A DNA stretch of 64,000 nt from Polytrichum commune (Eukaryota > Streptophyta > Polytrichopsida > Polytrichales > Polytrichaceae), in contig OX485805.1 in the NCBI GenBank assembly GCA_950295325.1, positions 13,689,501 through 13,753,500 on the forward strand. The letters run 5' to 3'. Shown here piece by piece: positions 1 through 47,442 of this stretch. How positions within the stretch are numbered: position 1 is the stretch's first letter; every line of letters starts with the position of its first letter. The notes beneath the pieces are model-generated. The model had not been told where the DNA came from and did not search any database. It worked only from the letters and a program-made list of their open reading frames with translations. The position numbers and the translations under genes were made by a program.

Positions 1-2245
1 TTTGCCCCTTGCCTCGCACCTCCTGGGATCCCCCTGAAATCAATTAGGGCAAATGGGCAACCCCTGCGGTCCTCCCTCACCTCGGCCCTGCTGATGGTGC
101 CGTCCCACTTAGAAAAAGTGGTCCTCTCCAGCCCGGTGGTTACCAAACAAAACCTGGCCACTCCCTCGAATGTGGCCCTCCGCTTCCTCTCCAAAAACTT
201 TATATACAACTCCACCTCCTGGGGATCTGTCTCTGCTTTCTTGGTCCGCTTGTTCCCCTTCAGCTTCAAGACGGAGGCGTGTTCCTTAACTAGCCTACGC
301 ATGGAAGAGCCGTTGATGTTATACCCGACCTTGAACTCCTTCCATCCAGCCTAGTTGATGTCCCCGTTGGCCTGGAAGAGTTTGTACTCCGGGACTAGTG
401 CGCCCAACTCCCTCATTGCGTTGGTCTTCAACTTGCGATGTTCGCACCACTCCTTGATGGAGTACGTTCCGGGCCTGTGCTTTGGCCTCTTCAAAAAAAT
501 CTTCGGGTAGGGGATTGTTCTCCCGACGGTGTTCCCAAGAGCATGAACTGCACATCTCTGCAATTCCGACTTCGTCAACCCCTGAAGCGGCCTAAAAAAT
601 TCCCTCAGCAGCGGAGGCGCTTCCCCAGTCTTCTCCTGATTATATTTTTCTTCAGTGTCGGGGTTGACGAGATCCCCCGCACTGTGAGCATCAAAAAATT
701 GGGTCCACAAATCCCAGGTGTCTCTGTTGCAACAAATAAGCCGGAGCTCACCCTTCAGCTCGAGCACTGACTTCGTTGAAGTGGACTTCATGTCGATGGA
801 AGAGAATTTGTCCACCATCGCATCGCAAAACGCCTGCATTAGAAAGGAATGTCATCGGTCAATCAAATACGAACGCACGTTCGTAAATAAAATGATCAGG
901 AATGTTCTAAAGGAACCTGAGAATTACGAACGCTCGTTCGTAAACTTACCTTCCATTGTGGATACTGGTTTTTCGCATTCTCCCTCTCCTTTGGTGGGCA
1001 CCCGTGTGCCACCCACACGTCTCTCGCAGCCACTATGTTTGCTGCCCATAATGCCTCAAACGCTTTGATCTTATTCCCAGAATTTAAAAATGTCGAAATT
1101 TTCCGGAGTTTGTTCCAGTCGTCTGACCACACCAGGAACGCCTTCCAGTAGCGCAGGTCCCCCTTCAGCTCATGCTGGAAGTTATCATCCTTGAGGATGA
1201 TCTGCGATGCCTCCAGGTTGTGCTGTCCATCAATAATCCAGAACTCCCCATTCTGGATTCTTGCCCAATCTTTCTCCGTGGGACGGGAAGTGAAACCCTT
1301 TGGCATAACGCACACAGTTTGCCTATCCCACTTCACGTTATTCATCAAGTTGTTGATTTGCCACTTCACACCTCCGCTTTCACGTGACCTCACCACCCAC
1401 TTGTTGGGGGATTTCTCGCATTTGAAGCAGTCCACGTTGAAGGTGAAGTGCCGTCCCATGGGCCAGCAATCCTTCGAGTAATTGTTGAAGTCGCGAAGGA
1501 TACGAGTCGCCTTTGCCGCATCAGGATTTTCCCCCTTCTTCAAAGGGGTCGGCATGACAGGCGGCGAGTTGACCTCAGCTGTCTCCGTGACACTAGACTT
1601 CTCCATATCGTCCCGAGTTCTTTTAGATGGCGTGGAGTGTCTGCTTGGCCCCTCTGACAATCTGCTAGCTGAAGGCACTGGCCGCGGCGCACTTCTAGAA
1701 CCTCCTGCTCCGGATGCAGTAGGTTTTTTGGGACTCTTCTTCTTCTTGTTGGCCTCCACGATGGCACTGTTATACTTGGACATATTTAGGGCCAGTGCAG
1801 TCAACTTCCTGGCTGTCCAATGCTGGCTGAGGCTGTACTTCGTGAAAAGGTTCACGAGGTCAAAATGCTTGGCATCCTCTACAACATTATTCTGTGCGTA
1901 TGTATGGGAGAAAGGGTGCCTCCTGAAGTCCAGTAGGAGGTTGATGTGGTCTTTTTTGTTTTTCAAATCCAAGATAACAAAATCACCCTGTGCCTCTATG
2001 GATTCTATCTCCCATGTCTTCATCTGCACCCACTGCTCCGGCTGGTCTGGCCTTGTCTCCAACTCGTATGTGAATCTCAGGGCGAACAATCCACCCTCGA
2101 TTTTCTCCGGGAGCGCCGTCCACTCCCCCATGAAGTCATCTTTGGGGACGTAATTATCGTTCCCATTGTCATCTGTCACTGACTCCGGAAGCCGATCCAA
2201 CTGAACCGCGAACATTTTGATTGCGCTCCTGACTGGTCTAGCCAT
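1..2245 (-). pseudogene. Long multidomain gene of element C, ParB-like exons 1-2 (partial)
   Basis: Exon 1 runs 2245 to 950. The ATG lies directly after a 3' splice site (TTGCAG|ATG), as in element A. Exon 1 (432 codons) ends in a region with IIDGQHNLEAS, a DGQHR/ParB-type core in which the usual Arg after His is Asn, followed by RYWKAFLVW and KIKAFEALWAANI, all conserved in A. A donor at 949-945 and an acceptor before 833 bound an intron holding two palindromes. Exon 2 starts AFCDAMVDKFSSIDMK and continues through the window edge, but a TAG at 353-351 replaces the Trp codon seen in A (GDIVWDNW). Reading continues in frame beyond it (EGVARFC, CPFALIDFRG), so the copy looks like a recent nonsense allele. 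Function is unknown; sequence-specific DNA binding is inferred from the ParB-like motif only. Confidence 0.7.
866..943. repeat. Two private palindromes in intron 1 of the element C long gene
   Basis: Two copies of the C-type palindrome (half-site TTACGAACG) lie in the 116-bp intron 834-949. Their central dinucleotides are CA and CT. They make up much of the intron. The homologous intron of element A also holds two palindromes, of its own type. Confidence 0.85.
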
Positions 2246-2275
2246 CTGCAATGTAACAGACACATTCAGAATTGC

Positions 2276-2960
2276 ATTTACGAACGCGCGTTCGTTACTG
2301 GCATTTGCAGGTCGTCAATAAATTATTTATTATTGGCAAGACATCTGTTGGTTCTTGTTTACGAACGTTCGTTCGCAAATTTGGTTTGATTTCCAAGGTG
2401 TTATTCATTTTCAATAAATACGAACGCGCGGTCGTATTTGAGTGCTGTGATGTTCATATGGCGTAATCAAAAGGTGTAGGGTTCGTTTTTATTTTCATTT
2501 TTTGGGCTCATTTTTATTAGTTTTTGGGTACACATATTTGTGTCCATGCCTTTGTGTAGATTTACGAACGCGCGTTCGCAAATCTTGGGTGTGTTTGGAT
2601 CCCTGGTTACGAACGATCGTTCGTAAATCTAGGATATTGATGTGATTCAGTGTTTGTTCACGAACGGACGTTCGCAAATACAAGATGTTCCTTATTTAAT
2701 CAATTACGAACGCACGTTCGGAAAATTAGAAGGTGAGTGGGTATTTTACGAACGCACGTTCGTAAAGGTGGAAAGTGAGTGGGTATTTTACGAACGCACG
2801 TTCGTAAAGGTAGAAGGTGAGTGGGTATTTTACGAACGTACGTTCGTAAAAGTAGAAGGTGAGTGCGTATTTTACGAACGTGCGTTCGTAAAAGTAAAGG
2901 GCTTGGTGTATTAGATGTATAAACGCCACATTTACGAACGATCGTTCGTAAATGTGGTCG
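2276..2960. repeat. Palindrome cluster in the leader of the element C long gene
   Basis: About a dozen copies of half-site TTTACGAACG plus two free bases plus its reverse complement. Central pairs include CG, TT, AT, GA, CA, TA and TG. From about 2747 to 2890 four copies sit in a regular 42-bp tandem. The cluster lies just upstream of the 3' splice site at the ATG of the long gene, so it is probably inside a leader intron. Short ORFs here (repeated YERTFVK or LRTRVRK) are only the palindrome read as codons. Confidence 0.85.
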
Positions 2961-3449
2961 TCTGTGTATGATAATAAATGCTTTCCATACATATACGGAT
3001 ACGTATACATACGTATACATACGTATGGGTTTATGAATGTTGCTATCGACATTGCTTGGATTTCTGCCTGCAACTCTTGATCAGAATGATGAAACACAAA
3101 GTGAAATATGTAATGACAACAACATTGAGATTCAGTGATTAAGAATTCATAATGAAGGGGAAAGTCCTAATTCATACAAAACATGACAAAGCTCATAATG
3201 CATAAAACATGACACATGGAATTCAACAAAGAACAATTTCAGATTGCAAAGAAGTGTTTTGAAAAGGAAACCTGTACTCACATTGAATTGTTGCAAACCC
3301 AAAACCTGCTGCCTGCTACTCAGAAATCCAGAAACCTCACAAATGCACTGATTTCGCTTTCAAATGCAATTTCTACCCTCGCTCCTTTCTCACACTCTCA
3401 AGCCTTCAGAATTTATTTACAAATCCTACAAATATTCTGATGTAAACAC

Positions 3450-3730
3450 AACTCACAAGCTTTCTGAAACTCTCAAGCTCTCAAGCTTTTTGCAACACTC
3501 AACCTCTCAAGCTTTCTAAAACTCTCAAGCTTTCTAAAACACTCAACCTCTCAAGCTTTCTAAAACACTCAACCTCTCAAGCTTTCTAAAACTCTAAACC
3601 TCTCAAGCTTTCCAAAACTCTAAACCTCTCAAGCTTTCCAAAACTCTAAACCTCTCAAGCTTTCCAAAACTCTCAACCTTCTCAAGATTTCTACAAATAT
3701 CAACCTCTCAAGCGATCCTACTCTCAAGCT
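3450..3730. repeat. CTCTCAAGCTTTC / AAACTCTAAAC simple tandem region
   Basis: Irregular tandem of about 12-30 bp units built from CTCTCAAGCTTTC and AAAACTCTAAAC. On the minus strand this lies between the promoter-like block of the long gene and its ATG, the same position held in element A by the TGCTTTGCTTTG repeat. No coding content is evident. Confidence 0.7.
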
Positions 3731-3920
3731 TCTGACAATGCGCGCCAAGAATAAACATAAAATGCGGCTATACAAATGGCCAGGGCTTCGCCGCATCTAA
3801 GCTCTCCCCTCCTCCTCTGCTCCAAATGACAAATGAGGAGGAGAGGAAGAGGCGCGGGGAGGTAGCCGGCACCGCTAGGGTTTCCTGGCGGCTGCCACGT
3901 GGCTGACAGCCACTGGCCAG
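3730..3920 (-). promoter_or_regulatory. Promoter-like block of the element C long gene (G-box, telo-box)
   Basis: On the minus strand, TCAGCCACGTGGC (3906-3894) contains a G-box core CACGTG. It is followed about 20 bp later by AAACCCTAG, a telo-box-like motif, and then by a pyrimidine-rich stretch typical of a plant leader. Element A carries the same 13-mer and a telo-box upstream of its own long gene (24025-24240), which is the main reason for the call. The transcription start is not determined. Confidence 0.5.
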
Positions 3921-4020
3921 GGCTGGGATGGGGGAGGGGATGGGGGAGGGGAGGGGATGGGGAGGGAATGGGGATGGGGATGGATGGGAGGGGAATGGGG
4001 ATAGGGAGGGATGAGGGTTT
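3920..4020. repeat. GGGGATGG/GGGAGG purine-rich low-complexity tract
   Basis: About 100 bp of G-rich purine repeat (GGGGAGGGGATGG variants) immediately upstream of the G-box block of element C. It is low-complexity sequence without coding content. Confidence 0.7.
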
Positions 4021-4546
4021 ACGAATTAAGAAATACGAAATGGTGGGAGCTTAGTTCGGGGACATGAATTTTACATTCAGGGGATACGTATACATTCACT
4101 GAATATGTAAACATATTTTAGTGGGGGATACGTATACGTATTCAGGGGATATGTATGAATTTTACATTCGGGGACATGAATTTTACATATGGATTCCTTG
4201 TAAACATATTTTAGAAAAGTATGTTCAGTTAATTTGTACAACACAATGCATGTCATTTAGTAGGTTTTCGATGAAGAATCCACCCCAATGTGTGTATGGT
4301 GTTTTGCAAAATAGAGTTTTCATGAACCACACATCCTTAAAGTTGTTCAATGGTTCCTCAAACAAATTTTACATACATAAAGGACGCATTTTGAATTGTG
4401 GAGAGGGGCTATCAGATTCTCCTCAAGAGGTGGGGGAAAATTCATTTTTCAATACGATGTCATTAATTTCATGAGGTGTTAGCTTGACCCACCCTTAATA
4501 TGATATTTAGTATTAGATACTCTAAATACGAACGCATAGTACACTA

Positions 4547-5075
4547 AGGGCCTGTTTAGACTTGGGGCCAAGGCCATTGTGAACGAAGGCCAATATGTCC
4601 CATGTGGCATGCAAATGGGCCCCAAAGGCCATTAATAAGAAAGTAACCTAACTCCATTCATTGCTTTCATGTGTAAACCTATTTAGGTGGGGTTGGGGCC
4701 ATTTGGAGGTTGCAATTATGAGAGGGTTATGAGAGGTTCCAACGTACTCATGAACTATTCTATGGATAATAATTAAAGTATAATAAATTTAGAATTTCTC
4801 CCCTCCTACTCAATGCTCAAAGAATAAACTACTATAAGCGAATAAAAGCTCTAACAATGGCCTCAACAAGAGGGAAAGAGTCCACAATGTTGGGAGCTCT
4901 CTTTTCCAAGGCTTGAGGCCATTGTCATGATGAATAAAATAATTTATTTGTGATTGGCCCCAACTCATGGTGTAAACTTGAAGAGGAAAATCCTAGCCTT
5001 TCTACCAATGAGAGGCGTGGATTTCTTTCACCCCAACCCATTTTTGAGCCTTGACTCCAAGTCTAAACCCGTCCT
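4547..5075. mobile_element. Possible MITE inside element C
   Basis: The left end AGGGCCTGTTTAGACTTGG is mirrored at the right end by CCAAGTCTAAACCCGTCCT, giving imperfect inverted termini about 530 bp apart. The interior is AT-rich and non-coding. The target duplication is not clean (CACTAA is seen near both sides), so superfamily and exact limits are uncertain. Confidence 0.4.
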
Positions 5076-5142
5076 AAGTATCACTAACGATCTAAACCCT
5101 AAGCCCGCAAACCACATATTAGACAACTTTCACAAACCATAT

Positions 5143-5196
5143 ACACTAACCCCAAACCCCAAACCCCAAACCCCAAACCCTAAACCCTAACCCTAC
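5143..5196. repeat. Telomere-like CCCCAAA/CCCTAAA tract
   Basis: A short run of CCCCAAA units passing into CCCTAAA units, a degenerate interstitial telomere-type repeat. It is too short to indicate a chromosome end. Similar TTTAGGG-type runs occur in element A near 21128-21168. Confidence 0.7.
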
Positions 5197-6290
5197 ATCT
5201 TTTTATCTTACCAACCCTTCTTAGGAGGTCAAGTCATTTAATTAGTTGTCGACTTGAACTAACAAACGAATACTAGTGCCATCAACTTTAAATTTCACCA
5301 ATGATCAATTGCATTTAAACTTGTAGTTCATAATATGGTCCGATGTTTGGCGAGCCTCAAGTGTAGGGGGTGGATTCAAATGAAAAATCCACCCGCAAGC
5401 ATGTGTATATGGTGTTTTAAAATGTAATTTTTTCATGGACAATATGTCTTTCAAGGTGTTCAATGGTTCCTTAAAAAAAAATTATTGGATAAAAGACTCA
5501 ATTTCATATTGTGGCGAGCCTGCGCTATCCTAAACCTTTACAAAAGGTGGAGGAAATTCTATTTCTCATAGGACGTCAAACACATGATATTAATAATTGT
5601 AAGTGTGACTTCACGTAGGCATGGTTTCAATTCTTATCATTATCGTATGCACCGTTCCAAAGTGATTGATCATTTCCAATCATGCCATTTTAATTCATTA
5701 TTTTCAAACCTAGTGTTACATTTGAATGAAGACCTTACCTACATATATTGGGTATGATTACTTCAAAATGTCCTCAATTTACCTAGTACAAACCATTATG
5801 GATTAAGCGACTTTTTATTGGTATTCATGCAGTTGGTGACCATATTACGGGCATTTTTTTTATGTGAATCATATGATACCTACAATTTTAGGGGCTTCCA
5901 CAACATGTTTTTAGCTACTCTTACCTCATTGTGTGTGTGAATATATATTACCCTAAACCCTTCATCACTTTATTAGGTATAATCAATCGTCAATTAACTT
6001 GGACTTCACACCTTAGTTGCAAATCATTTAAATTCAATGTTAACCATAAGCCTATATAGACATTATAAATCTAATAATATATATAAAATATAAAATTCAT
6101 ATATACATATAAATATAGACATATATTCACGTGAGACCTTGGTGACAACTAAGGTGTGCGACCGATTGACATATTTACAATATGTTGCGTGCATGCAAGA
6201 CATGTTCCATACATAATGCTATTTATTTATTCCGCATGGATGGAATGGCATATTGTTAGGTCAAAGTAGGCGGCGGGAATCCGCTTTTTA
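5197..6290. other. Unrecognised AT-rich spacer of element C
   Basis: No ORF of substance, RNA gene or terminal repeat was recognised here. It is the central spacer between the divergent promoters of the two genes of element C. Confidence 0.5.
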
Positions 6291-6410
6291 AATAGCATCC
6301 AAGGGATTTTGAACCATCAGGGGGGAGGTACTTAAAGCTCTTCCCCCCACATCAGAGCTCTTTTCTGCGGCACAACCAAGTGTGCGCTCCACAGACCTGA
6401 CTGGAACGAG
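6290..6410 (+). promoter_or_regulatory. Promoter-like block of the element C DUF7869-type gene
   Basis: The stretch ATCCAAGGG ... GGTACTTAAAGC ... CCCCCCAC ... CTCTTT recurs in the same order on the minus strand of element A (about 20545-20470) upstream of its homologous gene, with GTACTTAA as a possible TATA-like core. GAGTACTTAAGGG also occurs in the promoter-like block of A's long gene. The assignment rests on this conservation and position. Confidence 0.4.
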
Positions 6411-6604
6411 CACAAACCATTTTCTTGTGCGCCCACCCTATACCTCCCAAATACACAATAGGTTGCACATACCCGCATATACCGCTGCAAATACCGGACT
6501 TTTACGAACGCACGTTCGTAAAGATGACTTGGTAGCGACATGTGATGCGAGTGGTTTAGACATGTAGTTTAGACGAGTGGTATAGACGAGTGGTTCAGAC
6601 ATGT

Positions 6605-7715
6605 GATGCGAGTGGTTTACGAACGTGCGTTCGTAAGTAGAGCATTAGACATACTCAACGTAGATTTACTTACAGCTAGTCATAGGCACAAAATGTTCAA
6701 TTATATACGAACGTGCGTTCGTATATATTTCCTTCCAAATACAGGCGCACGTAAGTTGTTGTGATGCGAGTGGTTTACGAACGTGCGTTCGTAAGTAGAG
6801 CATTAGACATACTCAACGTAGATTTACTTACAGCTAGTCATAGGCACAAAATGTTCAATTATATACGAATGTGCGTTCGTATATATTTCCTTCCAAATAC
6901 AGGCGCACGTAAGTTGTTGTGATGCGAGTGGTTTACGAACGTGCGTTCGTAAGTAGAGCATTAGACATACTCAGCGTAGATTTACTTACAGGTAGTCACA
7001 GGCACAAAATGTTCAATTATATACGAACGTGCGTTCGTATATATTTCCTTCCAGATACAGGTGCACGTAAGTTGTTGTGATGCGAGTGGTTTACGAACGT
7101 GCGTTCGTAAGTAGAGCATTAGACATACTCAACGTAGATTTACTTACAGGTAGTCATAGGCATGAAAATGTTCAATTATATACGAACGTGCGTTCGTATA
7201 TATTTCCTTCCAGATACAGGCGCACGTAAGTTGTTGTAATGCGAGTGGTTTACGAACGTGCGTTCGTAAGTAGAGCATTGGACATACTCAGCGTAGATTT
7301 ACTTACAGGTAGTCATAGGCACGAAAATGTTCAATTATATACGAACGTGCGTTCGTATATATTTCCTTCCAGATACAGGTGCACGTAAGTTGTTGTGATG
7401 CGAGTGGTTTACGAACGTGCGTTCGTAAGTAGAGCATTGGACATACTCAGCGTAGATTTACTTACAGGTAGTCATAGGCACGAAAATGTTCAATTATATA
7501 CGAACGTGCGTTCGTATATATTTTCTTGGAGATACAGGCGCATGTAAGTTCGTGTAATGCGAGTGGTTTACGAACGTGCGTTCGTAAGTAGAGCATTCGT
7601 TAATACTCCACGTTGACCTACTTATAGGTAGTCGTGGGCGCTAAAATGTTCAATGATATACGAACGTGCGTTCGTTTATTTTCCTCCGAACCCTCAAAGA
7701 CACCTACGCTCCCGT
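6605..7715. repeat. 158-159 bp tandem array with two palindromes per unit
   Basis: Unit starts (GATGCGAGTGG or AATGCGAGTGG) fall at 6605, 6763, 6921, 7079, 7238, 7397 and 7556. Each unit holds two C-type palindromes: one flanked by GGTTTACG and CGTAAGTAG, the other by TATATACG and CGTATATAT. Both have TG at the centre in nearly all units. Units are close to identical except the last, which is diverged. The array lies between the promoter-like block and the ATG of the DUF7869-type gene, probably in a leader intron. Confidence 0.9.
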
Positions 7716-7744
7716 GACTCTGTTATGTCCAACTGAACATATGA

Positions 7745-8355
7745 TGGTCTGGTATTCACGAACGTGCGTTCATAAATATCAATTGATATTATTTTGCAAT
7801 TATACAGAAACATCTGTTCATTTATGCACATGCCTCCTACTACTACGCTATAGATGTTTCTTCTGATGGGTCAACATTTTTACAAACACGGTTAGGGCTA
7901 GAACACATGATTGATCGTTCGTATGCATACGCCCATATGTTTCGGCCAGGACTTACGAACGATCGTTCGTATACATACACCCTTGAGTTTAGGCTCTACC
8001 TTGGGTTCGGTCGTTCCTAGATACACACCCGTCAAAGACATGCCCTTCAATTACGATGCTTGTTGCATGTGGATAATGATGCAGGTGCATTTTAGGTGCT
8101 CCTGAGCAATGCATGTTGCTTATCCCTTTTATAATTCATTGTTTGTTGGGTTGATGTTCTCGTCCGCGCGTTCGTGAATATATGTGCGTATGCTCTCCTT
8201 TGTTGGTTGGCAACACTTCCCATGTTTTATTAGCAAATCGACCCAAAACCCTTCACGGTTAATATGTACCACAATTGCATGCCGTTGTCCATTGGTGTGT
8301 GACTCCCACGTAGTATTTGCTTGTCATGGCGTTGTTTTCGAACGCACGTTCGTCT
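7745..8355. repeat. Scattered C-type palindromes upstream of the DUF7869-type gene
   Basis: Further full or decayed copies of the TTTACGAACG palindrome occur near 7757, 7912, 7950 and 8337, the last with flanks TTTTCGAACG. They end shortly before the gene start at 8497. No other feature was recognised here. Confidence 0.7.
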
Positions 8356-8496
8356 TCATATGTGAGGTCCCCCAACGGTGCCGCGAGAGTTGTTTGTGTT
8401 TTTTTAGCCATATATCTACACAGCTCTCGTTTTCGCTTTTGTGTGCATTGCGGTGCTTCTTGTTTTGGTCATTGATTAGTGGTTTGCTTAGGTTGG

Positions 8497-11400
8497 ATGG
8501 CGCTGCCCGTGGCATATAGTTCATTGGAGTTGTCCACAATTTCTTCCTCCTTCGATGGTGAGTGTGAACTTTCTTCCCCTTCGGCGGGTTGTAATGGTCT
8601 GCCAAACGTGATGGGGGAGTTTGTGGATACATCCTCCCATGAATCTTTAGAAGTGCACGAACAATCTCTACATTCCAGGGATGACCACGATGACATTCCG
8701 TTGTGTGCCGGTTTCGGGAGGGAGCAATGGGTTGGCCTTGATGTCGTCCTACTCAACGACATTGGTGTCCCTGTGGCAGATGGCATATGTAGAAACTCTG
8801 ATCCCCGTGATTGTGTGGATGCCAACCCCCTTGGTCCGAACGATGTTGGTGTGTGCATCTTGAATTCATTGCTTCCGCTTGAGGTCCCGGTGACATGGAG
8901 ATTTTCCTTGCGTCGATGGCTTTTTTGTCGGGTTCTCCATGACGGAGTGAGCTTGTTGGACCATGAGCGGCGCCATAAGCAAACACAATTAGCTTTGTTG
9001 GCCAAAATACGTCCTCGCAAAGGCCTACGCAAATATGATTCGAACCGTGTGCCTCGAGAAGATAAGGAGCGTCGACGGGATCGCATATTGGGAGACGAAT
9101 CTATCCGTCTTGTGTCCGCCAAAGACTGTTGCTATCGGAAATGTTGCCAGTTTTTCCCACGGGAGAAAATTAAGTCCCTACGTCAAGAGATGTGGCTGGC
9201 CGATTTCCGTATGAGATCGGCAAAGAAACTCGAGGTCCATAGAAATGTGCACATTGACACCCATGGGCATAAGGTGGTCACACTTGAGAATGTGGATGTG
9301 TGTTGTACCGCGTGGTATACCATCCATGCCGTGTCAAAGGCTGACTTTTATAGGTTTCAAAAGTATTCATCGTTGGGTCGCCGCTCACGATTTCATGGAA
9401 ATTCGGGCACAAAGAAACCTCGGGAGGCTACACTCCAAGCCTCCGCGACACTCTCCACCATCATAGTCCCATTGGCCGATGCAATGCCCCACAAGACGAG
9501 GACATTGTCGTCAGGGGAGAAAGTTGTACAAATGGTGTTGCCCACAGGTACAAAATGGAAGAACATATTAACGGACATTAACGAAGTGGGTCGCATAGCG
9601 GGATGTGGTCCCATTTCTTTGTCCAAGTTGAATGTAATTAAAAACCAACAGTTTGCTGAATACATTTTGAAGAGACCTGGGGACAAGTTCGCTAGGTGTA
9701 CGACGTGTGAAAAATACAAAGGTCTTCGAGACGCCCACCCCATAGGCACCGAATCCCACTCCAGACACCAAGCAAAATATATTGAACATGTCAACAACCA
9801 AGAGGCTCACCGTCAAGATTACTACAAGAACCGTGCTCTATCCATAATGAGGCCTACACAGGTTCTAACAATCATCCATGACAAAATGGACCATGCCAAG
9901 ACCGCATGCCCTTGTTATGCACGGAAAATAAAGGCCACGGATGGACTCTTCAAGTTGCCCGTAGCTGTCACAAGTTTGTAGGAAATCACAAATATGTGTT
10001 CAAATTCTATCCAATTTTACTAGATGTGTTTGCGTTAGGTTTCAACTTCACACATCCGTTTAGGGTTGTTGTTGTTATTGTTGTCATTCATGGATCGTTT
10101 GTTTTTTCCCAGGGATGATTGCCCACGGACATGGAGACGTTAAGTATGCCCATTATGGTCTGGATTTTTACCCTGGCGATGCTAACCACACGGTGGGATC
10201 ATTTGCAAAACTCTTGCACGATCTTGAGAAGCCACCGGTACATTCATCACGTGCATTGTTTGATGGTTGTGGAACGACACCCCTTTACGAAGCACTGCTT
10301 GCGGGGAAGGAGGTTTGTATGTCGTCATTGCCGGAGCCACCCGGAGAACCTCTTTGTGCGAAACCTTTGCCTCCAACTCTCCACGTTCAACTTGATAATT
10401 GTGCGAAGGACAACAAATGTCGATATGTATTTTGTTTTTGGTCCTTGCTTGTGGCGAAAGGAATCTTCAAGGAGGTGTTTGTGTCTTTCTTGATGGTGGG
10501 ACACACACACGATGACATTGATGTGTCTTTCGGACAGTGGAGCATGAAGTTGCATGAAGAAGATTTTCCAACCATACCACTTATGAAATCGTATATGGAT
10601 TTGGACCATATGCCGGTAATTCCGCACATGATTGAGGAAGTACCAGATTTCAAGGCCTTCATCAAGCCATACATGTTGAAGGGAGGGGACCGTTTGGTGG
10701 GACATACCAAAGCACAACAATTCCGATTCTTTATAAGGGATGATGGTCTCCCGGCCATGCAATTTAAGCTTTTGTGCACATCTCCTAATTGGGGCCCGGA
10801 TGATGGTATACTCGTATGGTGTCAAGACAATGATGGGAAATGTTTGCTCCCGGATGGGGATCCAAAGCCTTGCAAACCCGACCCCATGAGGAATGGGCCG
10901 GAAATCATCAAAGGCATATCCGGATTCATTGAATATTGGAAAGAGTTGTGTGAGGAGGACATCACTAGACGTGTTAGAGATACTCATGAACCTTTGATTG
11001 CGTATTGGGATTGCATTCGCTCGGCCCTAATGACACTTGGTGGCGACACCCGTACAACTTTAACACAAGGATTTTGGCCACAAAGCCGTTTAACGGTTGT
11101 CGAGTCCGACACCATGTTTTTTAGCAATAGAGACGTTCGTGAAGAGTTCGCAATGGACGAGCATTACGTTGGCCCTGCCCGAGATCGACCGGCACCGTCG
11201 TTTCGTGTAGGTGTTGATTGCCATGAAGGTTATTTGGTCCTCGTACGAGCAGGGGATGAAGAGTGTGAGGCCAAAACCCCCACCCTTAAGCGTCCGTAGT
11301 CCGAGTAGTGGGTTTGGGCTCACATTCCTCCGCGGTATTGGATTTGGACTTGGATGAGTCCATAGTGCAAGGTTCACCCTTCAAGTGGTCTTGGTTTTAA

Positions 11401-13550
11401 TTGGTGTCTCCATACCGTACATAAGCCTTTAAGTATTAAGAAATACTTATGTGACTTATGTCAATCTCTCCCTCGCACCTTTGGTCTTTGCTTCCTTTGT
11501 CTTGCCATCGCGAGAGTGCTCCACATTCTCCATTAAGTTGTGCACGTGGTTTATTTTTAAAGAGAGGATGCAAGTGTTAAAAAAAACACTATTCTCTATA
11601 GTCAATCTCAAATACATTTACTTGTGAAAGCCACACATAACACTAACTAGCATAATGTAACTAACTACTTGTCTATGAGCTAATTAGGTAGGCTATCTAC
11701 TAAGCTCCTTCATGAACCCATCTCTTTACTTTCTAATTACATAAACCTAGCTCCTTCATAAACCCAGCTCCTTCATAAACCCAGCTTCTTAGCTTCTAAC
11801 TAAACAAACCCAGCTCCTTCATAAACCCAGCTCCTTCATGAACCCAGCTCCTTAGCTTCTAACTAAACAAACCCAGGTCCTTCATAAACCCAGCTCTTTA
11901 CTTTCTAACTAAACAAACCCAGCTCCTTCATAAACCCAGCTCCTTCATGAACCCACAACTTTGTAGTTGTAATCCCCAACTACCTCACTAATTATTCAAG
12001 CCCTTAACTAATCTTCCTACCTAATTTCCCTAATTCTACTAACAACCCCATTCTAATCACACAATTCTTCTCTAATCCTAAAATCCTAAAATCCTAAAAT
12101 CCTAGAGAGGAGAGGGGGAGAGATAATTTCCTAACTTCACTAAGACTAACTAATCCACACAAGTATATTTTTGCACTCATCACAACATCAAGTGCTCAAC
12201 TCTTAAACATGAAACTTGCAACCACGTGTATTCAAAACATGAACTTAAAGTACCACAAATTGGAATCATGAATTAACTTTAAAATCCTTCACGTCAACAC
12301 TAATTCTACCAAGAGGTCAAGCCCTCTTCAAGGCTAACAAGCCTTGGCTCTCAAACTAAAAACTAAGCACACACATGTGCTCCAATATGGCTTCCCACAC
12401 CCACACTTATAACTCGTGGGGTGCCTTGGAGCACAAAGGAAAGAGAGGATGAGTGAGGGAAGAATGAGGGATTATATAGTAAGCTTGAGGGGGTGAGCAC
12501 CCTCAAGGCTCACGATAAGCCCTTGAGATTTCCTCCTACTTAGTAGGCGCCAATCCTATCTTCTAAGCCTTCCTCCCTCAAATGATCAACAAGGATCCTA
12601 ATTCGAACATTTAACTAGCCTTGGCTTTCTACCTACCACACTTTACCAAACTTGGGATGCTTCAACCCAAACTTAGCCTCCTTCGCTTTCCGCCGCCATA
12701 ACTTTCTCCCCTTACTTTCCCAAATCGTCGCTCACCACTTAATTCAAACCACGATGCTTAACTCGTGATTTGATTGGTGCTTTGAGAATTTGCTTATCCT
12801 CCACCTTGCATTCTTCCTTGGGCCTTCCCCATTAAGTGGCCATGATGAGGTGGTCCACTTGTGCGCTCCATGTGATCCTCCATTCATCCCAATTCGAATG
12901 CACTTGCCTCTTGAGTCACTTTGGTTGTCTCCATCCATTTGTACTAGCCTACTCACTAACTACTCAATCCAAGTTCTCCTTACCTATCCTCATTCACTCA
13001 AATCCTTCCGAAGGTAAAAACACAATAACAACTCACATCCTAGCCTCTTACAACATGGTACTTCTAAGACTAACATTTCACTCTTTTTATATTTTTGTGA
13101 AGTAACATGCTACTTCAAAGTGCATCAACTAACGTTTCAAGGGTCTAAGACTAAATGTGGGCACCCTTTTGGGCTCACAAAGAGCATCCCAAGCCAATTT
13201 GGTTGGTGAAAGCATTGTCTTCACCCAATTTTGTTCGAACTAGCCCCAACTTTCGTCAAATTGAGGTGGAATATTGTCGTCCAAGCATTAAAGACCAAAA
13301 CGTGCTACGCACTTATTTAGGTTGGGACACCAAAAAGAATTTTAAGTGGACAGTGGACTCAGCGTACACACCGGTTTGGATAAACACGGATACTATACTT
13401 TGTGCTTGGAAGCCGCGCAAAGGTTCCAAAACAGAAACAATGACCATCCCCCAAAAACATATAGATTTTGCCAAAGACAACTTGGCACGTATTGCAGCTG
13501 CGGTGAATGACGCCGAGAATGGATATGAAGCGGAAGATGGAGATGTGTAA
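8497..13550 (+). pseudogene. DUF7869-type transposase-like gene of element C, interrupted by S1
   Basis: Exon 1 is 8497-9973 and exon 2 is 10113-11263, resuming at 13185-13550 once S1 and one AAGAG copy are ignored; the total is 998 codons in frame. A 3' splice site (GCTTAG) ends 10 bp before the ATG. Exon 1 encodes an N-terminal module (REQWVGLDVVLLND), a Cys-rich block (DCCYRKCCQFFPR), a CxxC pair (CTTCEKYKG) and IIHDKMDHAKTACP. Exon 2 begins MIAHGHGDVKYAH and carries VQLDNCAKDNKCRY and VGHTHDDIDVSFG. Such Asp/His blocks are what I associate with DUF7869 proteins; a DDE-like RNase H fold is inferred. Copies in A and B share the splice site and most residues. The insertion leaves the last 122 codons detached. 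Confidence 0.8.
11264..13179. mobile_element. S1: TG...CA insertion, probable solo LTR (1916 bp)
   Basis: The segment begins TGTGAGGCC and ends GGGCTCACA, with AAGAG duplicated exactly on both sides (11259-11263 and 13180-13184). Removing it restores the reading frame seen in elements A and B. TG...CA termini with a 5-bp duplication indicate a long terminal repeat left by recombination, or a non-autonomous retroelement. No coding sequence is recognisable. The interior has an AGCTCCTTCATAAACCC direct-repeat field (about 11745-11960). A close relative in the opposite orientation is S2 at 47949-49732, which lacks roughly 110-130 bp near the TGTGAGGCC end. Confidence 0.8.
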
Positions 13551-13927
13551 ACATAACATATTAGGTGGGAGTTAATGGTGAAAAACATGGGCGCTTAGTA
13601 GACTTGGTTTTTATTAGACTTAGTGGACTTGTCACACTCCATTGTTGTATACGTTTGGGATGTGCCATCCAAATTCATAAGAGCCTTACTTATGGGATGC
13701 GCACCCCAAATTCTATAATGACATAAACCAATTGTTTTTTCAGAGTTGATTGTTATTTTCCACAAAGAGCTCACGTTTTCATTTTAATTGAAATTATCTA
13801 TTTTTAGTAATAAGAATATGCTTTACGTGCGAAATTTCAAATCGTCATGTTCTTGATGTTCCCAATATTCCGTATGCCCACAATATTGGCATCCCAAACC
13901 ATGGGCATATTTTATTTTGAGACTTTC
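13551..13927. other. Non-coding 3' and subterminal region of element C
   Basis: The stretch between the stop codon of the DUF7869-type gene and the terminal repeat is AT-rich and holds no ORF. It probably contains the 3' untranslated region and subterminal transposase sites. Confidence 0.5.
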
Positions 13928-13955
13928 AAAAGTCTCCGATTAACGAATATAGTGT
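13909..13955. repeat. Right terminal inverted repeat of element C
   Basis: Reading inward on the minus strand from 13955: ACACTATATTCGTTAATC, then GAGACTTT, two bases, AAAGTCTC. This is the transposase-gene end. The same GAGACTTT inverted pair stands at the transposase-gene end of element A. Confidence 0.9.
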
Positions 13956-15663: not shown

Positions 15664-15669
15664 TCTTTA

Positions 15670-19416: not shown

Positions 19417-19464
19417 GGCCACTACAAGAGAGCCAAATGAAGAATGAGATAAAATATAAGCAGT

Positions 19465-32668: not shown

Positions 32669-32674
32669 TCTTTG

Positions 32675-38260: not shown

Positions 38261-38265
38261 TAGTC

Positions 38266-40158: not shown

Positions 40159-40206
40159 TGTTGAAGCGGAAGTAGAACTCACTACTTCGGAACGAATCAG
40201 TTCATA
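40159..40206 (-). repeat. Copia-1 5' LTR, part next to gag
   Basis: The first 48 plus-strand bases of the LTR up to TTCATA, where element B entered. The remainder is at 52002-52134. Confidence 0.92.
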
Positions 40207-40244
40207 ACACTATATTCGTTAAATTGAGACTTTCTCTAGTCTCA
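40207..40244. repeat. Left terminal repeat of element B
   Basis: ACACTATATTCGTTAAATTG, GAGACTTTCTCTAGTCTC. The GAGACT motif is again inverted at the transposase-gene end, though the arms are shorter (6 bp) than in A and C. Confidence 0.92.
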
Positions 40245-40737
40245 AATTAATATATGGATCAAAGAACTTGAAGAGGCCCGAAACTATATTGTCAACAATC
40301 TCAAATATATTATATGTTCTAATATCCCAAATCTATGATGTGCGGACATAAGCACATATGGTAGAGCACTCGACACCAACTTCATCAACAAAAACACATT
40401 GGGTAGAGCACTTCAAACAAGTTTCACCCAAAAATATATATAAAATGATTTCTATTATTAGCATGTTCAATAGAATATAGACATTGCAACATACAAAGTG
40501 CATGTAATAAATGCATGTTTCTTCATTTGAGAATATAGTCCCAAGCATAATAATAAGATGAACTTCAATTGCAGCTTGAAATATAGTAAATGGATATTCA
40601 TCCAACTCCAAACAATATAGTATTCGTAAGTTCTACCCAAACTCTGCCCCAATTTTGAAGAGCACACATATGTGTAATTTATATTGCTATAATTACGTAT
40701 TAAACTATAATCATGCTAACACAATCCTACCAACTTC

Positions 40738-43700
40738 TCATTCAACGTGGGTTGCTTCTTCTGCAATCCGAGCAAGGTTGTCTTTTGCAAAAGTTATGTA
40801 CTTTTGAGGGATGGACACTGATCCACTATGGTGTTTCCGTGGTTTCCATGCTATGAATATGGAATCTGTATCTACCCAAGATGGACCGTGCTCAGAATCC
40901 ACCTTCCACCGAAAGTTAGGGTTTGTATCCCAGCCTGTATAATGCCGAATCACATCTTCATTCCTTGCTGTCGGTCGATAGTACTCCACTTGTATTTGTC
41001 GAAAATGAGGGCTGGAAGTTACAAAATTGGGTTTGGACAAAGCTCTTGCCACCCACACTGGCTTCGCATATGTCTCGTCTCCAGGACGCAAAATGAGCAT
41101 ATAACCTTCATGACAATCCACTGCAATGCGGAAAGATGGTGGGGGACGACTACTAGCAGGCCCCACGTAATGGTCGTCCACATCAAACTCCTCTCGAACC
41201 TCTCCATTTCCCAAAAGACTAGGCTCTGAAGCTTGTACATCGACTCGTGTTTGTGGCCAAAATCCATGCCTCAAAGTATGAGGGCTATCTTGGTGGAGGT
41301 CTGCCAAGGCGGCACGAACACGTGTCCAATAATGTATCCAACTCCCATAACGATGCCAACATGATCCGCCAACATCCGCTATTTTCAAACTCTCCCAATA
41401 TTGTATGAAGCCTGATATACCTTTCAAAATATCCTCCAAATTCTTCATGGCTATTGGCTTACAAGGCCTAGGCTCCCCATCCGGTAACATGGTCTTTCCA
41501 TCCGCATCCACGCGCCACACAAGAAGACCCTCCGGCGGGCTCCAGTCTTGTGACGTGCACAACAACTTGTATTGCATGGCCGGGACACCATCGTCACGCA
41601 TATAGAAGCGGAATTGTTGTGCCTTCGTATGCCCGATCAATCGGTGAGCTCCACTTCGAATATAAGGTTCTATAAATGCCTTGAAGTCTGGCACCTCCTC
41701 AATCATATGGGGGATGACGGGAACGTTCTCCAAATCCATGTACGACTTCATCAATAATGGAATTGTAGGGAAATCCTCCTCCCGCAACTTCATGCTCCAC
41801 CGCCCAAAAGATGCATCAATATCATCGTGCGTGTGGCCTACCAATAGGAAGGACACAAAAACCTCCTTGAAAATGCCTTTCACAACCAACAACGACCAAT
41901 ATGCAAATACATATCTGCTTTTATTGTCCTTGGCACAATTGTCCAATTGGACACGCAAAGTTGGAGGCAACTTCTTGGCAATCACGGGTTCATTGGGTGG
42001 CTCGGGCAACGAATGCAAGCATACATCTTTTCCATCCAACACCGTTTCATATAAAGGTGTTGAACCCGTGTTCTCAAATAACAGTCCTGAAGAATAGGCT
42101 GGTGGTTTCTCTAAATCACGTAAAAGCCTTGCAAATGATCCTATCGTGTGGTTTGAATCCGCTGGATACAAATCAAGAGCATAATGAGCAAATTTGACAT
42201 CACCGTGTCCATGTGCAATCATTCCTGCAATGCCAACCCAACGTGATTAGCATCTATGTATGAATAAACCATTATGAAGGAATCCATGTTCTCCAGTACA
42301 TCACGGAATAAAATACAACAACATTTAGGGTATGTCATGACATTGTTTCGAAGTTCACCTGTAACCGATACAGACAACTTGAAAAACCCATCCGTGGCCT
42401 TGATTCGATTTGCAAAACATGGGGAGGCTGTTTTGGCATGGTCCATTTTGTCATGGATGACCGTAAGAACCTCCAAGGGCCTGGAGATGGACAAAGCTCT
42501 ATTTGTGTAGTAATCATTACGGTGTGCCTCTTGCATGTTTACGTGCTTGAAATAGTTCAATTGATGCGCTGCATATGACTCGGTGCCCATCGTGTGTGCA
42601 TCCCGGAGGCGCTTCAACTTCTCGCAATTAGAGCACCTGGCAAATTTGTCCCCTCGTCTTTTTGTAATGTATTCGCTAAAGTTTTGTTTCTTGATTGCAC
42701 TCAATTTTGACAATGAAATTGGCTCCAACCCAATCTTCTCGCCAACTGCATTAACGTCCAACAATATGTCTTTCCATTTTGTGCCTGTGGGAAGAACTTT
42801 CTCCACAACCTTTTCACCGGTTGTGAGTGTGCGTGTTTTGTGCGGCATTGCATCGGCAAGAGGGACAATGATGGTTGCTAGAGTGGCCGTTGCTTGCCTT
42901 GTTGCTTCCCTAGGCTTCTTTAAACCCACGTTACCATGGTGACGGGACCGGCGGCCTTCCTTGGCATAAGCAGCTTGTCTATAAAAGTCCGATTTCGACA
43001 CACCGTGAATGGTGTACCATGCCTTACAACACACGTCTATGCTTTCAATGGTGATGACCTTGCGACCCGTCCCATTCACATGTATCGCCCTATGGACATC
43101 AAGTTTTCTTGTGGATCTTAGACGGAAATCTCCAAGCCACATTTCTTCGCGGATGACCTTCAATTTATCCCTTGGAAACAATTGGCAACAACGATGCACA
43201 CAACAATCCTTTGTGGCAACTTCTCTAATGGACTCCTCCCCGAGCAACCTTTGACGTTTACAATCAGTTGCAGACGGAGCAGGACGTGCCAATGTATCGT
43301 ACTTTCTTTGACCCTTGCGCGGCCGCATGTTTGATTGCACCTCCTTTTCGATTTGCATGTGTCGTTGCTCATGTTCACGCAAGCTAACTCCATCAATTGT
43401 GACATTCCTCAATGGCCACCTGTGGAGGGAGAACCTATGAGTGGGATCCACCTCGGAATGAACGACCGACTCCAATATGACAACCCCAACGTCCTCAGTG
43501 CCAAGCAGGTTTTCATCAATGCAATCTTGCGGATGGGTGTTACGGCAAATCCCCTCCGCCACAACAACTCCACTATCGTTAAGAAGTATCACCTCCAAAT
43601 TCACCCACGAAGCCCTTGAAAGTCCCGTACATTCAACAATGGGACACTGCGGTACGGAAGACGAAGGTAAATCCAAATGATCTTCATCCGCACTGTCAGC

Positions 43701-43802
43701 CATAGTAGCCTCCCCGACAATGTCTAGGTCATCATCAGATGCAGATGGCCAAGTGGCCATGTCATCAGATGACCAATCCCCTATTTCACTAAACCCATCC
43801 AT
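40738..43802 (-). CDS. DUF7869-type transposase-like gene of element B (intact)
   Basis: Exon 1 is 43802-42359 and exon 2 is 42224-40738, joined as 977 codons with no stop or frameshift. A 3' splice site (TAGGCAG) lies 1 base before the ATG. Order of blocks: acidic N-terminus, SRASWVNLEVILLNDSG, DCCVHRCCQLFPR, CSNCEKLKR, VIHDKMDHAKTASP, then MIAHGHGDVKFAHYALD, VQLDNCAKDNKSRY and VGHTHDDIDASFGRWSMKL. These blocks are near-invariant among the three copies, while the N-terminus and 200-residue C-terminal part vary. A DDE-like catalytic role for the Asp residues is inferred. This is the only undamaged transposase candidate in the window and might act on all three elements, whose ends are nearly alike. 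Confidence 0.8.
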
Positions 43803-44015
43803 TCTGCCTACACACATGAACATTGAACATTGTCTTAAAATCACAAAAATTGTAGGTTCAAATCGAAGAACAAAAAAACCATCATATATAAACAAAATTG
43901 CAAATACTCAGTGCTCATACAAGTTCATATGACTGCTATGCCATTGGGCTTGTAAAGGTTTCGGAAGGCCAGTGGCCACACCGGCACCCAGATCCCAACC
44001 ACACTTAGAGGCTGG

Positions 44016-44845
44016 GTTTGGGTCGAGCGACCCAAACCTTTTGGGAGGATGGGTTCAGGCTCAATACAGAGAGCACCCACACTTAGGCGCTGGATTTGGG
44101 TCGAGCGACCCAAACCTTCTGGCAGGATGGGTTTAGGCTCACTACAGACAGCATCCACACTTAGGGGCTGGGTTTGGGTCGAGCGACCCAAACCTTTTGG
44201 CAGAATGGGTTTTGGGTCACGACAGGGAGCACCCACACTTAGAGGGCTGGGTTTGGGTCGAGCGACCCAAACCTTTTTGCAGGATGGGTTCAGGCTCACA
44301 ACAGTGAGCACCCACAGTGTAGGGCTAGGTTTGGGTCGATCGACCCAAACCATGAGGCAGGATGGGTTCAGGCTCACAACAGTGAGCACCCACACTGTAG
44401 GGCTGGGTTTGGGTCGATCGACCCAAACCTTGAGGCAGGATGGGTTCAGGCTCACAACAGTGAGCACCCACACTATAGGGCTGGGTTTGGGTCGATCGAC
44501 CCAAACCATGAGGCAGGATGGGTTCAGGCTCACAACAGAGAGCACCCACACTGTAAGGCTGGGTTTGGGTCGACCGACCCAAACCATGAGGCAGGATGGG
44601 TTCAAGTTCAGAACAGTGAGCACCCACACTGTAGGGCTGGGTTTGGGTCGATCGACCCAAACCATGAGGCAGGATGGGTTCAGGCTCACAACAGAGAGCA
44701 CCCACACTGTAGGGCTGGGTTTGGGTCGATCGACCCAAACCATGAGGCAGGATGGGTTCAGGCTCACAACAGAGAGCACCCACACTGTAGGGCTGGGTTT
44801 GGGGGGGTGTAGGGATGGGTTTGGGTTTGGGTCGATCGAAGAAGC
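44016..44845. repeat. 78-bp tandem array of B-type palindromes
   Basis: Palindromes (GTTTGGGTCG, two bases, complement) start at 44016, 44094, 44172, 44251, 44329, 44407, 44485, 44563, 44641 and 44719, with a broken copy at 44797. The period is 78 bp throughout (one step of 79). Central pairs are AG in the first four, then AT, with one AC. The linker reads GGCAGGATGGGTTCAGGCTCAC...GAGCACCCACACT. Because 78 is divisible by three and stops are absent, long spurious ORFs run along both strands. The array passes directly into the truncated long gene. Confidence 0.95.
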
Positions 44846-45744
44846 TCATCGTGGACGGAGAGGTCGACGAGGCGCACTGGAGGGCCTTCAAAGCCGAATA
44901 TAAGTTTACCAGTGCGTCCATGGCGGCACTCATGAGGGAGGCGGGAGACGACTTCCTCAGATCCAAGCTCGTGAAGGGGGGGAGGAACCGGGCGCTTCCC
45001 GAACACTCAGTGCGGGCCTTCTCCAACTTCATAAAGGAGAAGAAGATCGTCAGTTTCGAAGGCGATGCGCAATTCAACATGGTCACTGTCGAACCTCTCA
45101 GGATCCAGGGTTGGCCGGGTTCTGAGTCAAGGAAGGCGATCAGGACTAGAGCCGGGGACCGCTTCCCCTTCGGAATGATAGACTTCAGGAACATCCCTGG
45201 AGCCTCATTCGAGGGGACTATGAGCACCCCTTTTTACGATCCTTTCTTGTCGAAGTTCGTGGACTACGCCACCCCAAATTCAGGGAGGTCGACGTCTGGC
45301 TCTGGATTGTCGAGGACAGAAGGGCAGAGCAGGTTTACGAGATCGTGCGCAAATTGCAGCCAGAGTATGCCGTCTCGAAATCTCACTACGTTGCTGCACC
45401 AGCGGAGGGGGCGTACAGCACGCTGAAAGACAAGAAGACGAAGATCGTCAACGTGCTGTGTTTGTACTTCGTGTACAAAGCTGAGCTGCTTAAGGTGCCA
45501 AACCATCCCATAGCCAGGATGGAAAAGCTCTTCCAAGTCCAAGAAGGGTTGGGTACCAGCAGGAGCTTATATGACGAGGCGAAGTACGCCAACTACCCCG
45601 CGGATGAGCTGCGCATGGAGTTCTACCTGCGGATGATGAGGACCCTCACGAAGAGAGGGGACTGCATCTTCAACGTTTTCGGGGGGTCCAAACCGATTTT
45701 TGCAGCCATGGTAAGCAGAAAACCCAGAAGTCCCTATACGTTCG

Positions 45745-45838
45745 GTTTGGGTCGAACGACCCAAACTAGGGGCATGCACAGTTTGGGTCGAGCGACCCAA
45801 ACTAGGGCCATGCATAGTTTGGGTCGAGCGACCCAAAC
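45745..45838. repeat. Three B-type palindromes in intron 2 of the element B long gene
   Basis: Cores at 45745-45766 (centre AA), 45781-45802 (AG) and 45817-45838 (AG) lie within the intron 45711-45921. The homologous intron of element A also carries three palindromes. Confidence 0.9.
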
Positions 45839-47047
45839 TAACTATTCTTATTTTGTTTGGAAGTCATTTTCCATTATATGTTCATTTGGTGTTACTAATA
45901 GTATTGATTTTGATTGTGCAGATGTCTGGGTTGAACATCTACTCCTATGTAGAGGATGCCGATGTTCAATTCTACAGGACCCAAAAGGCGCTGGCCAAGA
46001 GAATGGACATCCTCGACTGGATACCCGGATCCTACGTCGAAGAGATCGTCGAGGGGGGCGAGAATCCTTTGGATATTGCGAGGCGAATCAACCCGGGTGA
46101 ATTCGCCATGCGGGCCCCCGTTCAATTGCCAGAGCCGCTCATCGGGTTGCATCCGGGCAATCCGTCTATGGGAGCAGGTGGCAGGGTTGGGGAGGAGGGG
46201 GAGGAAGACGAGGAGGAGGCGGAGGAGGAAGCAGAGAAAGTGGAGGGGGAGGTGGAGGAAGGGGCAACAGGATTCACTCAAGAATCCGAGGCCCCTCAGC
46301 GGAAGAAGGCCATGCGGCCTGCCACGCCGCAGAGCAGGCTGGTGCCCGCATTGACGGTGGACGACGCCAAGGATATGTACTCGAGGGACGCGACGGCCAC
46401 CTTCAGGGAGCGTAGAAGGATGAAGGGGAAGAAGCTGTACGGGGACTATGCGGTGGAGGAGACGATCGCAATAAGCTCCGAGGACGAGGACGACATGGAA
46501 CTCGCCAAGAAGCTGAGGTCTGATCCTGCCTCCCCCAGAGCGTTCGCCGGGAATGTGAGGGTGAAACCGGAGGTCCTCACCGTGGAGGAGGCGAACGCAA
46601 AAATGCTCCGAGACGGGGAGCAGCGTGTGCGACTGCAGAGGGCTGCCGCCGAGGAACCCTCTGTCCGCAACGAAGTCGCGGAGTTGAGGGCTCTCCTGTT
46701 GGAGCAGGAGCGGCAAAGGGCGATGTCCCAAACTCCGTCCCAAGCGGACCTCATCACGCAAGTGATCCAGGGCATGCTGGCGCAGGGATTGGTGATGGCT
46801 CCCCCGAGTTCATTCCCTCACTTGCCCGCAGGCTTCCCTCCACAGGATATCCGCCCGCGGCCGGCGTTGGAGCATTCCTTCAGCTTCGCGGATTTGCTGC
46901 AGCCGCACGCCCGTCCTTACGCGCCTGTGCAGCAGGTGGATGATCCAAACCTTTGGCGCGTCCCCGGAGCGTCCAGCTCGTTGGCACCCCCCCGCTCCGG
47001 CCTCCCATCCTCTTGCCCCCACACCACCAGCGGGACGACCCCCACAT

Positions 47048-47138
47048 GTTTGGGTCGTCCGACCCAAACAGTGCCGACGTTGCAGCGTCGCAGAGCGACC
47101 CTCGCCAAGCAGCAGGGTTTGGGTCGGCCGACCCAAAC
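47048..47138 (+). repeat. Two B-type palindromes within coding exon 3
   Basis: Perfect cores at 47048-47069 (centre TC) and 47117-47138 (centre GC) lie in the Pro-rich tail. In the frame that continues to 47411 they read FGSSDPN and FGSADPN. A third, intronic copy is at 47421-47442. Confidence 0.85.
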
Positions 47139-47442
47139 CCCGTCCCCCATCAGACCCCGGTCGACGAGCCTATGCTAGATGTTGAAGGCCCGCAAGGGCC
47201 TGGTGATACCTCTACTCCTAACCCAGTCGATGAACCAATGCATGATGCGCATGCGGAGGTTGGGTTGGGACAAAGGCCTGACAGTCAGCCTTTGCAGGAG
47301 CAGGTTGCGGCTGACGGCGTCGTCGGAGGCGGCGGTGACAGAGGTGGGGCAGCGCACGCGATGCCGGCATCAACGTCGTCAAGGCACGACCAAGGCGAGG
47401 TAATGCACTGACCCCACTCAGTTTGGGTCGGCCGACCCAAAC

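Follow-up and report, generated by a model that had tools for sequence, protein, structure and literature searches.

Family-specific 22-bp palindromes in giant moss transposons: candidate recognition sites for an element-encoded protein with predicted ParB-like and methyltransferase-like folds

The window analyzed here, a 64,000-nucleotide stretch of the genome of the moss Polytrichum commune (assembly GCA_950295325.1, contig OX485805.1, positions 13,689,501 to 13,753,500, forward strand), contains three transposons, called elements A, B and C. Each belongs to a family that carries many copies of its own 22-bp palindrome and has, besides a transposase-like gene, a divergently oriented long gene. 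We infer, with somewhat better than even confidence, that the palindromes are sites at which a dimer of the family's own long protein, predicted to combine a ParB-type domain with a methyltransferase fold, recognizes its own element, probably with an anti-silencing effect like that of the VANC proteins.

Palindromes in the window and across the genome

The three half-sites proposed in an earlier sequence-only reading are present as described, with 6 exact 22-bp copies for C, 11 for A and 15 for B. A blind scan of the 64 kb returned 40 perfect palindromes of 10+2+10 bases, all of them inside elements A, B and C, as compared with three in total (mean 0.15) in 20 Markov-1 shuffles of the window. 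All but one represent one of the three motifs or a close variant, the last being a weaker A-like form. Element C contains 11 of them (6 exact and 5 TATACGAACG), element A contains 14 (11 exact and one each of CTTACGGACG, TTTACGGCCG and the weaker GTTACGGATG at 17941, which matches at 16/20 positions and sits in a probable transposase intron) and element B contains 15. The sites that match at 17 or more of 20 positions number 30 in C, 26 in A and 16 in B, which bears out the earlier estimate of about 15 to over 30 copies per element. They are distributed as follows:

866..8356, no strand: C-type palindromes TTTACGAACG-NN-CGTTCGTAAA; 30 sites at >=17/20 spanning 866-7973 and an extra 16/20 site at 8335; long-gene intron 1 (866, 923), a group before the long gene (2277-2952) and an array before the transposase gene (6501-7678)
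17941..30307, no strand: A-type palindromes TTTACGGACG-NN-CGTCCGTAAA; 26 sites at >=17/20 (19470-30307) and the extra perfect but weaker one at 17941; near promoters, before the transposase gene (19470-20274) and before the long gene (25134-25763); long-gene intron 1 (27117, 27191), intron 2 (28639, 28710, 28758) and 3' end (30174, 30286)
44016..47442, no strand: B-type palindromes GTTTGGGTCG-NN-CGACCCAAAC; 16 sites; array 44016-44740, long-gene intron 2 (45745, 45781, 45817) and 3' end (47048, 47117, 47421)

The sites had been placed in non-coding DNA and introns, which is true of most, but a few lie inside the long-gene open reading frames (ORFs), near the 3' end (A 30174; B 47048, 47117). 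Crossing between elements, which had been denied, is rare but does occur. Among sites at >=17/20, those of a foreign type are limited to element A, whose 26 sites comprise 23 of A type, two of TTTACGGCCG type (a perfect palindrome at 28710 among them) and one A/C hybrid at 25542; elsewhere in the genome, a C-type site is found in 6/10 loci of a sister group of A. The palindrome is thus private to a family, but not to a single copy.

Many copies are held in tandem arrays with periods of about 42, 53, 67, 78 and 158 bp. Information content, taken only from sites with unlike 25-bp flanks (20 A, 6 B and 18 C contexts), is high across the 22 bp and 0-1.0 bit outside, where the highest values belong to B with its six contexts only. 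The arms are constant, as claimed, while the two central bases are free in B and C but mostly CG in A. The outer TTT/AAA is present in all three motifs, although the TTT of B is offset by one base relative to A and C. This pattern of conservation looks like that of a binding site, and because the site is symmetrical its reader is probably dimeric, as had been suggested.

In intron 2 of A (28639-28731), the TTTACGGCCG palindromes have both arms altered alike, and the same variant occurs at introns of four A-side database relatives. This suggests either that TTTACGGCCG is accepted as a further half-site or that the site type is in the course of changing.

Across the 407.8-Mb assembly (64 contigs, of which the seven carrying the examined loci measure 42-78 Mb), exact palindromes number 2909 for C, 1147 for A and 9231 for B, 13,287 together, while the reversed control palindromes give 0 matches genome-wide. 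The sequence TTTACGNNCGNNCGNNCGTAAA has 4283 matches, 4056 of which are A and C palindromes. In 30 C loci (384 sites with up to 3 mismatches), the two outermost bases are mismatched 79 and 77 times, as against 0-11 times for any one of the twelve core positions. The eight CpG positions take 55 of 354 mismatches in these loci, even though CpG is depleted in the two non-coding stretches measured, with an observed/expected ratio of 0.46 and 0.48 (0.77 in the whole window). Retention of CpG is not seen in the 21 A loci, where these positions take 75 of 167 mismatches. The mismatch counts of both sets are biased by the near-match search itself.

Among the A and C clusters listed and in one B copy, the sites keep to the elements. 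On contig C1, where the listed A sites begin no earlier than 25.4 Mb, 47 of the first 50 belong to six clusters that also contain an A-side long-gene exon 1, and three belong to one cluster that lacks it. Three of the five listed C clusters have a C exon 1, one has an exon-sized gap and one, at C1:640864-646099, is without a known long-gene exon; the latter holds 26 of the 86 distinct C sites listed, two further sites being solitary. This array-like cluster, in which the middle of the 26 C-type palindromes is mostly GG or CC, is perhaps a non-autonomous derivative.

Correspondence of half-site and long-protein clade

The main half-site agrees with the clade of the long protein in 61/61 genomic loci. 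Of these, 31 belong to A or to the sister group and 30 to C, and many are near-identical copies, so that they amount to fewer than 61 independent cases. The commonest perfect 8+2+8 palindrome is TACGGACG in 31/31 A-side loci and TACGAACG in 30/30 C loci. When up to one mismatch of 16 is allowed, 21 A loci contain 212 A and 4 C sites, nine sister loci (the group is 77% identical to A) contain 86 A and 25 C sites, and the 30 C loci contain 0 A and 372 C sites; the C-type site of the six sister loci is a single perfect palindrome beside A-type ones.

Database relatives, some of which are perhaps from the same species, can be typed where their sequence runs from exon into intron and the site is read as peptide: FTDxRP or YGRxSV for A, FTNxRS or YERxFV for C, and VWVxRPK or LGRxTQ for B. 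The site matches the clade in 37/41 typable fragments, and the other four, all A-side, carry the TTTACGGCCG variant. Typing was possible for 20/28 exon-1 relatives (A side: 8 A and 2 TTTACGGCCG; C side: 10 C), 18/51 exon-2 relatives (6 A, 2 TTTACGGCCG, 10 C) and 3/29 B relatives, one of these through a loosened pattern; the remainder show no motif, or only RTxVR, which is common to A and C. No C site on an A-side protein, and no A site on a C-side protein, was found among the typable relatives. These results agree with the earlier proposal that specificity has diverged together with the element.

A tree was built from 37 rows, made up of 20 typed proteins, 16 loci and a single B exon, with near-identical loci and untyped proteins omitted and one chosen locus dropped; on it the four site types need three changes, which is the minimum. 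Judged from these sequences, the A/C split is a single old event, while the position of B is unsure because its branch is very long. The ratio of nonsynonymous to synonymous substitution rates, computed for 13 exon-1 pairs, is 0.03-0.17 in seven pairs between subfamilies; three other pairs are saturated and three near-identical ones give 0.87-1.63 from a handful of changes, which is little informative. The half-site stays the same over distances at which synonymous sites are near saturation.

In the window copy of B, the long gene lacks exon 1 and the first part of exon 2. A further B copy (C1:616-626 kb) has its sites in the same pattern, with an exon-1-sized stretch between sites, and 520 bases from the end of that stretch encode a ParB-like domain that contains DGQHSVEASK and shares 44% identity with A. 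The B-type ParB exon was therefore found where the spacing of the sites had predicted it. A gene with the DUF7869 domain of the transposase-like genes is located 10 kb from this exon in divergent orientation. Among the first 32 B exons listed, 28 have a DUF7869 place within less than 20 kb, all divergent, the places having been picked by eye so that the count is descriptive only.

The long protein as candidate reader

The long genes are arranged as follows:

25713..27137, + strand: A long gene, exon 1 ORF; PH-like part at residues 45-197 (weak) and predicted ParB/Noc-like domain at residues 297-425
27217..28608, + strand: A long gene, exon 2 ORF; helical part, then predicted beta-class DNA-methyltransferase fold at residues 241-463, with DFRxxP for DPPY
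28833..30272, + strand: A long gene, exon 3 ORF; no known domain found
896..2314, - strand: C long gene, exon 1 ORF; ParB-like part; 44% identical to A across the whole exon
1..866, - strand: C long gene, exon 2, cut by the window start
44854..47178, + strand: B long gene remnant; back part of exon 2 and exon 3

The long protein is thus predicted to join a ParB/Noc-type domain to a beta-class DNA-methyltransferase fold. ParB proper binds parS through a helix-turn-helix; in A, residues 8-240 of exon 2, read within the whole exon, are predicted to be helical. Motif IV of the methyltransferase fold contains DFR in 53/59 ungapped rows and DPP(Y/F/W) in 0/59, and motif I reads FGG(S/T)K in at least 25/45 rows. 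Since motif IV is altered alike almost throughout, DNA binding or the recruitment of partners is a more likely role for the domain than methylation. GERR, the box with which ParB binds cytidine triphosphate, is absent from the 29 ParB-domain rows, of which 28 have DGQH and one GGQH. The long gene diverges faster than the transposase: identity between A and C is 44-58% for the former and 78-83% for the latter, and between A and B 23-34% (44% in the ParB stretch of B) and 54-74%, respectively.

The palindromes are very probably the sites of a dimeric, family-specific DNA-binding protein. An A-side exon 1 lies within 20 kb of 59/86 A-side transposases, divergently in 58/59 pairs, and the clades of the two genes agree in 59/59 pairs (13 close, 46 sister). 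Four A-side transposases also have a C exon within 20 kb, 0/4 in the divergent arrangement. Because the transposase and the long gene travel together, linkage cannot tell which of the two proteins is the reader. The long protein is the likely one, on account of its predicted fold, its faster divergence and the placement of the sites at promoters, introns and the 3' end.

It is quite unlikely that the transposase reads the sites, for instance to assemble or regulate transposition. It does remain linked to the long gene with matching clades, and its N-terminal parts vary between families (58-78% identity). However, the A and B sites at >=17/20 keep at least 2.3 kb away from the element ends and lie for the most part around promoters and within introns of the long gene, a point qualified by weaker matches closer to the ends (A 31941, 16/20; B 51080-51742, 15-16/20). 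Moreover, the terminal repeats begin alike in A, B and C, and the transposases of A and C are highly similar despite their different sites. Sites that arose as by-products of tandem duplication, or that serve a host factor, with no element-encoded reader, are scarcely credible: many copies are in tandem arrays and the sites are CpG rich, but the same 22 bp turn up in surroundings that are unlike one another (20 A, 6 B and 18 C contexts), the sequence of the sites in introns and at 3' ends differs from family to family, and a host factor would not alter its site along with the element.

With the long protein as reader, each family's protein would recognize the half-site of that family beside the two divergent genes, within introns 1 and 2 and at the 3' end, and its action would thereby be confined to its own kin. 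The element promoters would probably be kept open against host silencing, as VANC does for VANDAL, although anti-silencing as the outcome, taken by itself, is given slightly less than an even chance. Palindromic operators bound by dimeric repressors are the commonest bacterial arrangement, and the sites do lie at the promoters of both genes, so the long protein might instead repress its own element to control copy number. This is unlikely, since the large arrays and the intron sites exceed a usual operator and the elements are abundant, with many near-identical copies. Active methylation, in which the methyltransferase domain would write N4-methylcytosine or N6-methyladenine at or near the palindromes as a self mark, agrees with the predicted beta-class fold and with the self-marking proposed for algal proteins in passages of PMC12477816, but the altered motifs I and IV make it very improbable. 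A bolder and rather doubtful extension of the favored self-recognition is a eukaryotic counterpart of ParB-parS, where the proteins would load at the family palindromes, cover and shield their own element, the methyltransferase domain having turned from writer into reader. Orthogonal protein-site pairs, kept like those of distinct plasmid partition systems, would then allow several families to coexist without cross-activation.

The closest known protein is that of Sola1-1_Ec32, a 21.5-kb element of Ectocarpus, whose 1104-amino-acid product is described in passages of PMC12477816 as ParB-like with an N4/N6-methyltransferase, encoded on the strand opposite the transposase; the same passages mention such proteins for green and red algal transposons and suggest that they bind and mark their own DNA. 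The moss elements resemble it as giant transposons with terminal inverted repeats and an accessory gene predicted to be of the ParB-methyltransferase type opposite the transposase. They differ, in a comparison made by description only, in motif IV (DFRxxP), the candidate palindromes with three sites for three families, and an extra NIF-phosphatase-like gene.

The likeness to VANDAL/VANC, drawn in the sequence-only reading, holds for layout but not for membership. VANDAL21 and VANDAL6 with their VANC proteins have element-specific motifs of 8-9 bases (PMC10398659; passages of PMC5735166), and VANC is more variable than the transposase VANA (passages of PMC5735166). In the moss elements, family motifs are likewise dense in non-coding DNA and introns and amplified in tandem, and the accessory protein is more variable than the transposase. 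In contrast, their palindromes, known here from sequence alone, are long and symmetrical, the target duplications are of 4 bp, the VANC domains DUF1985 and DUF287 are not among the Pfam matches of the exons and relatives, and no transposase of the Mutator-like element type was found, DUF7869 being the Pfam match above cut-off.

The comparison with ParB-parS, offered earlier as a parallel, goes beyond analogy, a ParB/Noc-like domain being predicted for the long-gene product. As in bacterial ParB-parS and Noc, the sites are clustered palindromes and the predicted fold is that of the ParB N-domain, but there is no GERR box, no ParA partner was seen, the site sequence is unrelated and a methyltransferase-fold domain follows downstream. 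DGQHR is a motif of DndB-type proteins, which belong to the ParB/Srx superfamily. The moss proteins have DGQH in the matching place, with Srx among the VIA rows, but no sequence match to DGQHR/DndB-type proteins or sulfiredoxin was found, and the moss domain is fused to others and transposon-borne.

Points beyond the earlier reading are the methyltransferase fold, the third gene, the element ends and the prior knowledge of ParB-methyltransferase proteins from algal transposons. Since they were reported there (passages of PMC12477816), this kind of protein is not new; as far as could be seen, novelty lies in the candidate recognition sequences and their switch from one family to another, in the altered catalytic motif and in the third gene. 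The string "palindrom" occurs 0 times in the main text of PMC12477816, although sources cited there for the idea may hold an earlier description. ParB-methyltransferase proteins of giant transposons are suspected of binding and marking their own DNA, and the passages of PMC12477816 on them give no recognition sequence. Three candidate sequences, with their 13,287 exact copies in one genome and tied to protein clades, turn this guess into a three-by-three binding question. If anti-silencing is true, the role of VANC in Arabidopsis would have been invented a second time from unrelated folds, and the families would form a natural set of orthogonal DNA-binding proteins.

Element ends, gene content and neighboring sequences

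Elements A, B and C are terminal inverted repeat transposons with 4-bp target duplications, read in the three copies of which both ends are available: CTTT (A), TCAT (B) and CTGG (a second A copy). The start of the terminal repeat, AACACTATATTCGTTA, is identical in A, B and C.

15669..32669, no strand: element A; terminal inverted repeats 15669-15696 and 32642-32669; duplication CTTT at 15665-15668 and 32670-32673
40206..52002, no strand: element B; terminal inverted repeats 40206-40233 and 51975-52002; duplication TCAT at 40202-40205 and 52003-52006
1..13956, no strand: element C, left side cut by the window start; right terminal inverted repeat 13929-13956
16315..19470, - strand: A transposase-like gene, three ORFs; DUF7869 in ORF 17050-17964
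40738..43907, - strand: B transposase-like gene; DUF7869 in ORF 40738-42246
8476..13545, + strand: C transposase-like gene; DUF7869 in ORF 10064-11299; broken by an insertion at 11264-13181
30588..31370, + strand: A third gene, NIF-phosphatase-like (E 1.9e-13), motif DLNGVL
49677..50501, + strand: B third gene, NIF-phosphatase-like (E 3.9e-15), motif DLNGVL

The bounds of A follow from the second A copy (loci L062, L003 and L063; 98.8-99.5% identical in the main aligned blocks), which has the same start and stop, together with the terminal repeats and duplications; four further A copies, fetched in parts, yielded one end or none and no end pairs. An element-free copy of the insertion site of B is present near 15066-15198. 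A 4-bp target duplication is a trait of Sola-1 transposons, and both it (in the three copies) and terminal inverted repeats are found here, the transposase being assigned by its match to DUF7869.

The DUF7869 (PF25273) gene and the divergent long gene are common to A, B and C, and the NIF-phosphatase-like third gene is found in A and B. Active NIF-phosphatase members have a second aspartate where these read DLNGVL. First-look candidates in the genome number 1057 (A query), 1090 (C query) and 944 (B fragment) for exon 1 of the long gene, sets that may overlap, and 1491 for DUF7869, from which 90 (A), 90 (C), 150 (B) and 150 (DUF7869) were scored. DUF7869 is absent from 14/14 control genomes. 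Matches to it at C2:52992202 and C6:41940433 reach 192-196 bits over nearly the whole domain, far stronger than in A, B and C, and other families of DUF7869 elements therefore exist in the genome.

The insertion that interrupts the transposase gene of C is 1.9 kb long, has ends TGTGAG...CTCACA and tandem AAACCCAGCTCCTTCATA repeats, and is flanked on both sides by AAGAG. A near-identical copy (95.9-100% in aligned blocks) lies inverted in B at 47949-49732, adjoining the NIF gene. Outside the three elements, the ORFs 15162-15617 and 53070-53807 (MDLRLREIT..., LPPLSDE...) resemble each other as judged by eye. Copia elements and a P450-like ORF, both recognized by eye, point to a land plant. Of the copia-like retrotransposon stretches, the one at 32875-40128, between A and B, and the one at 54182-58265 are about 71-86% identical in blocks.

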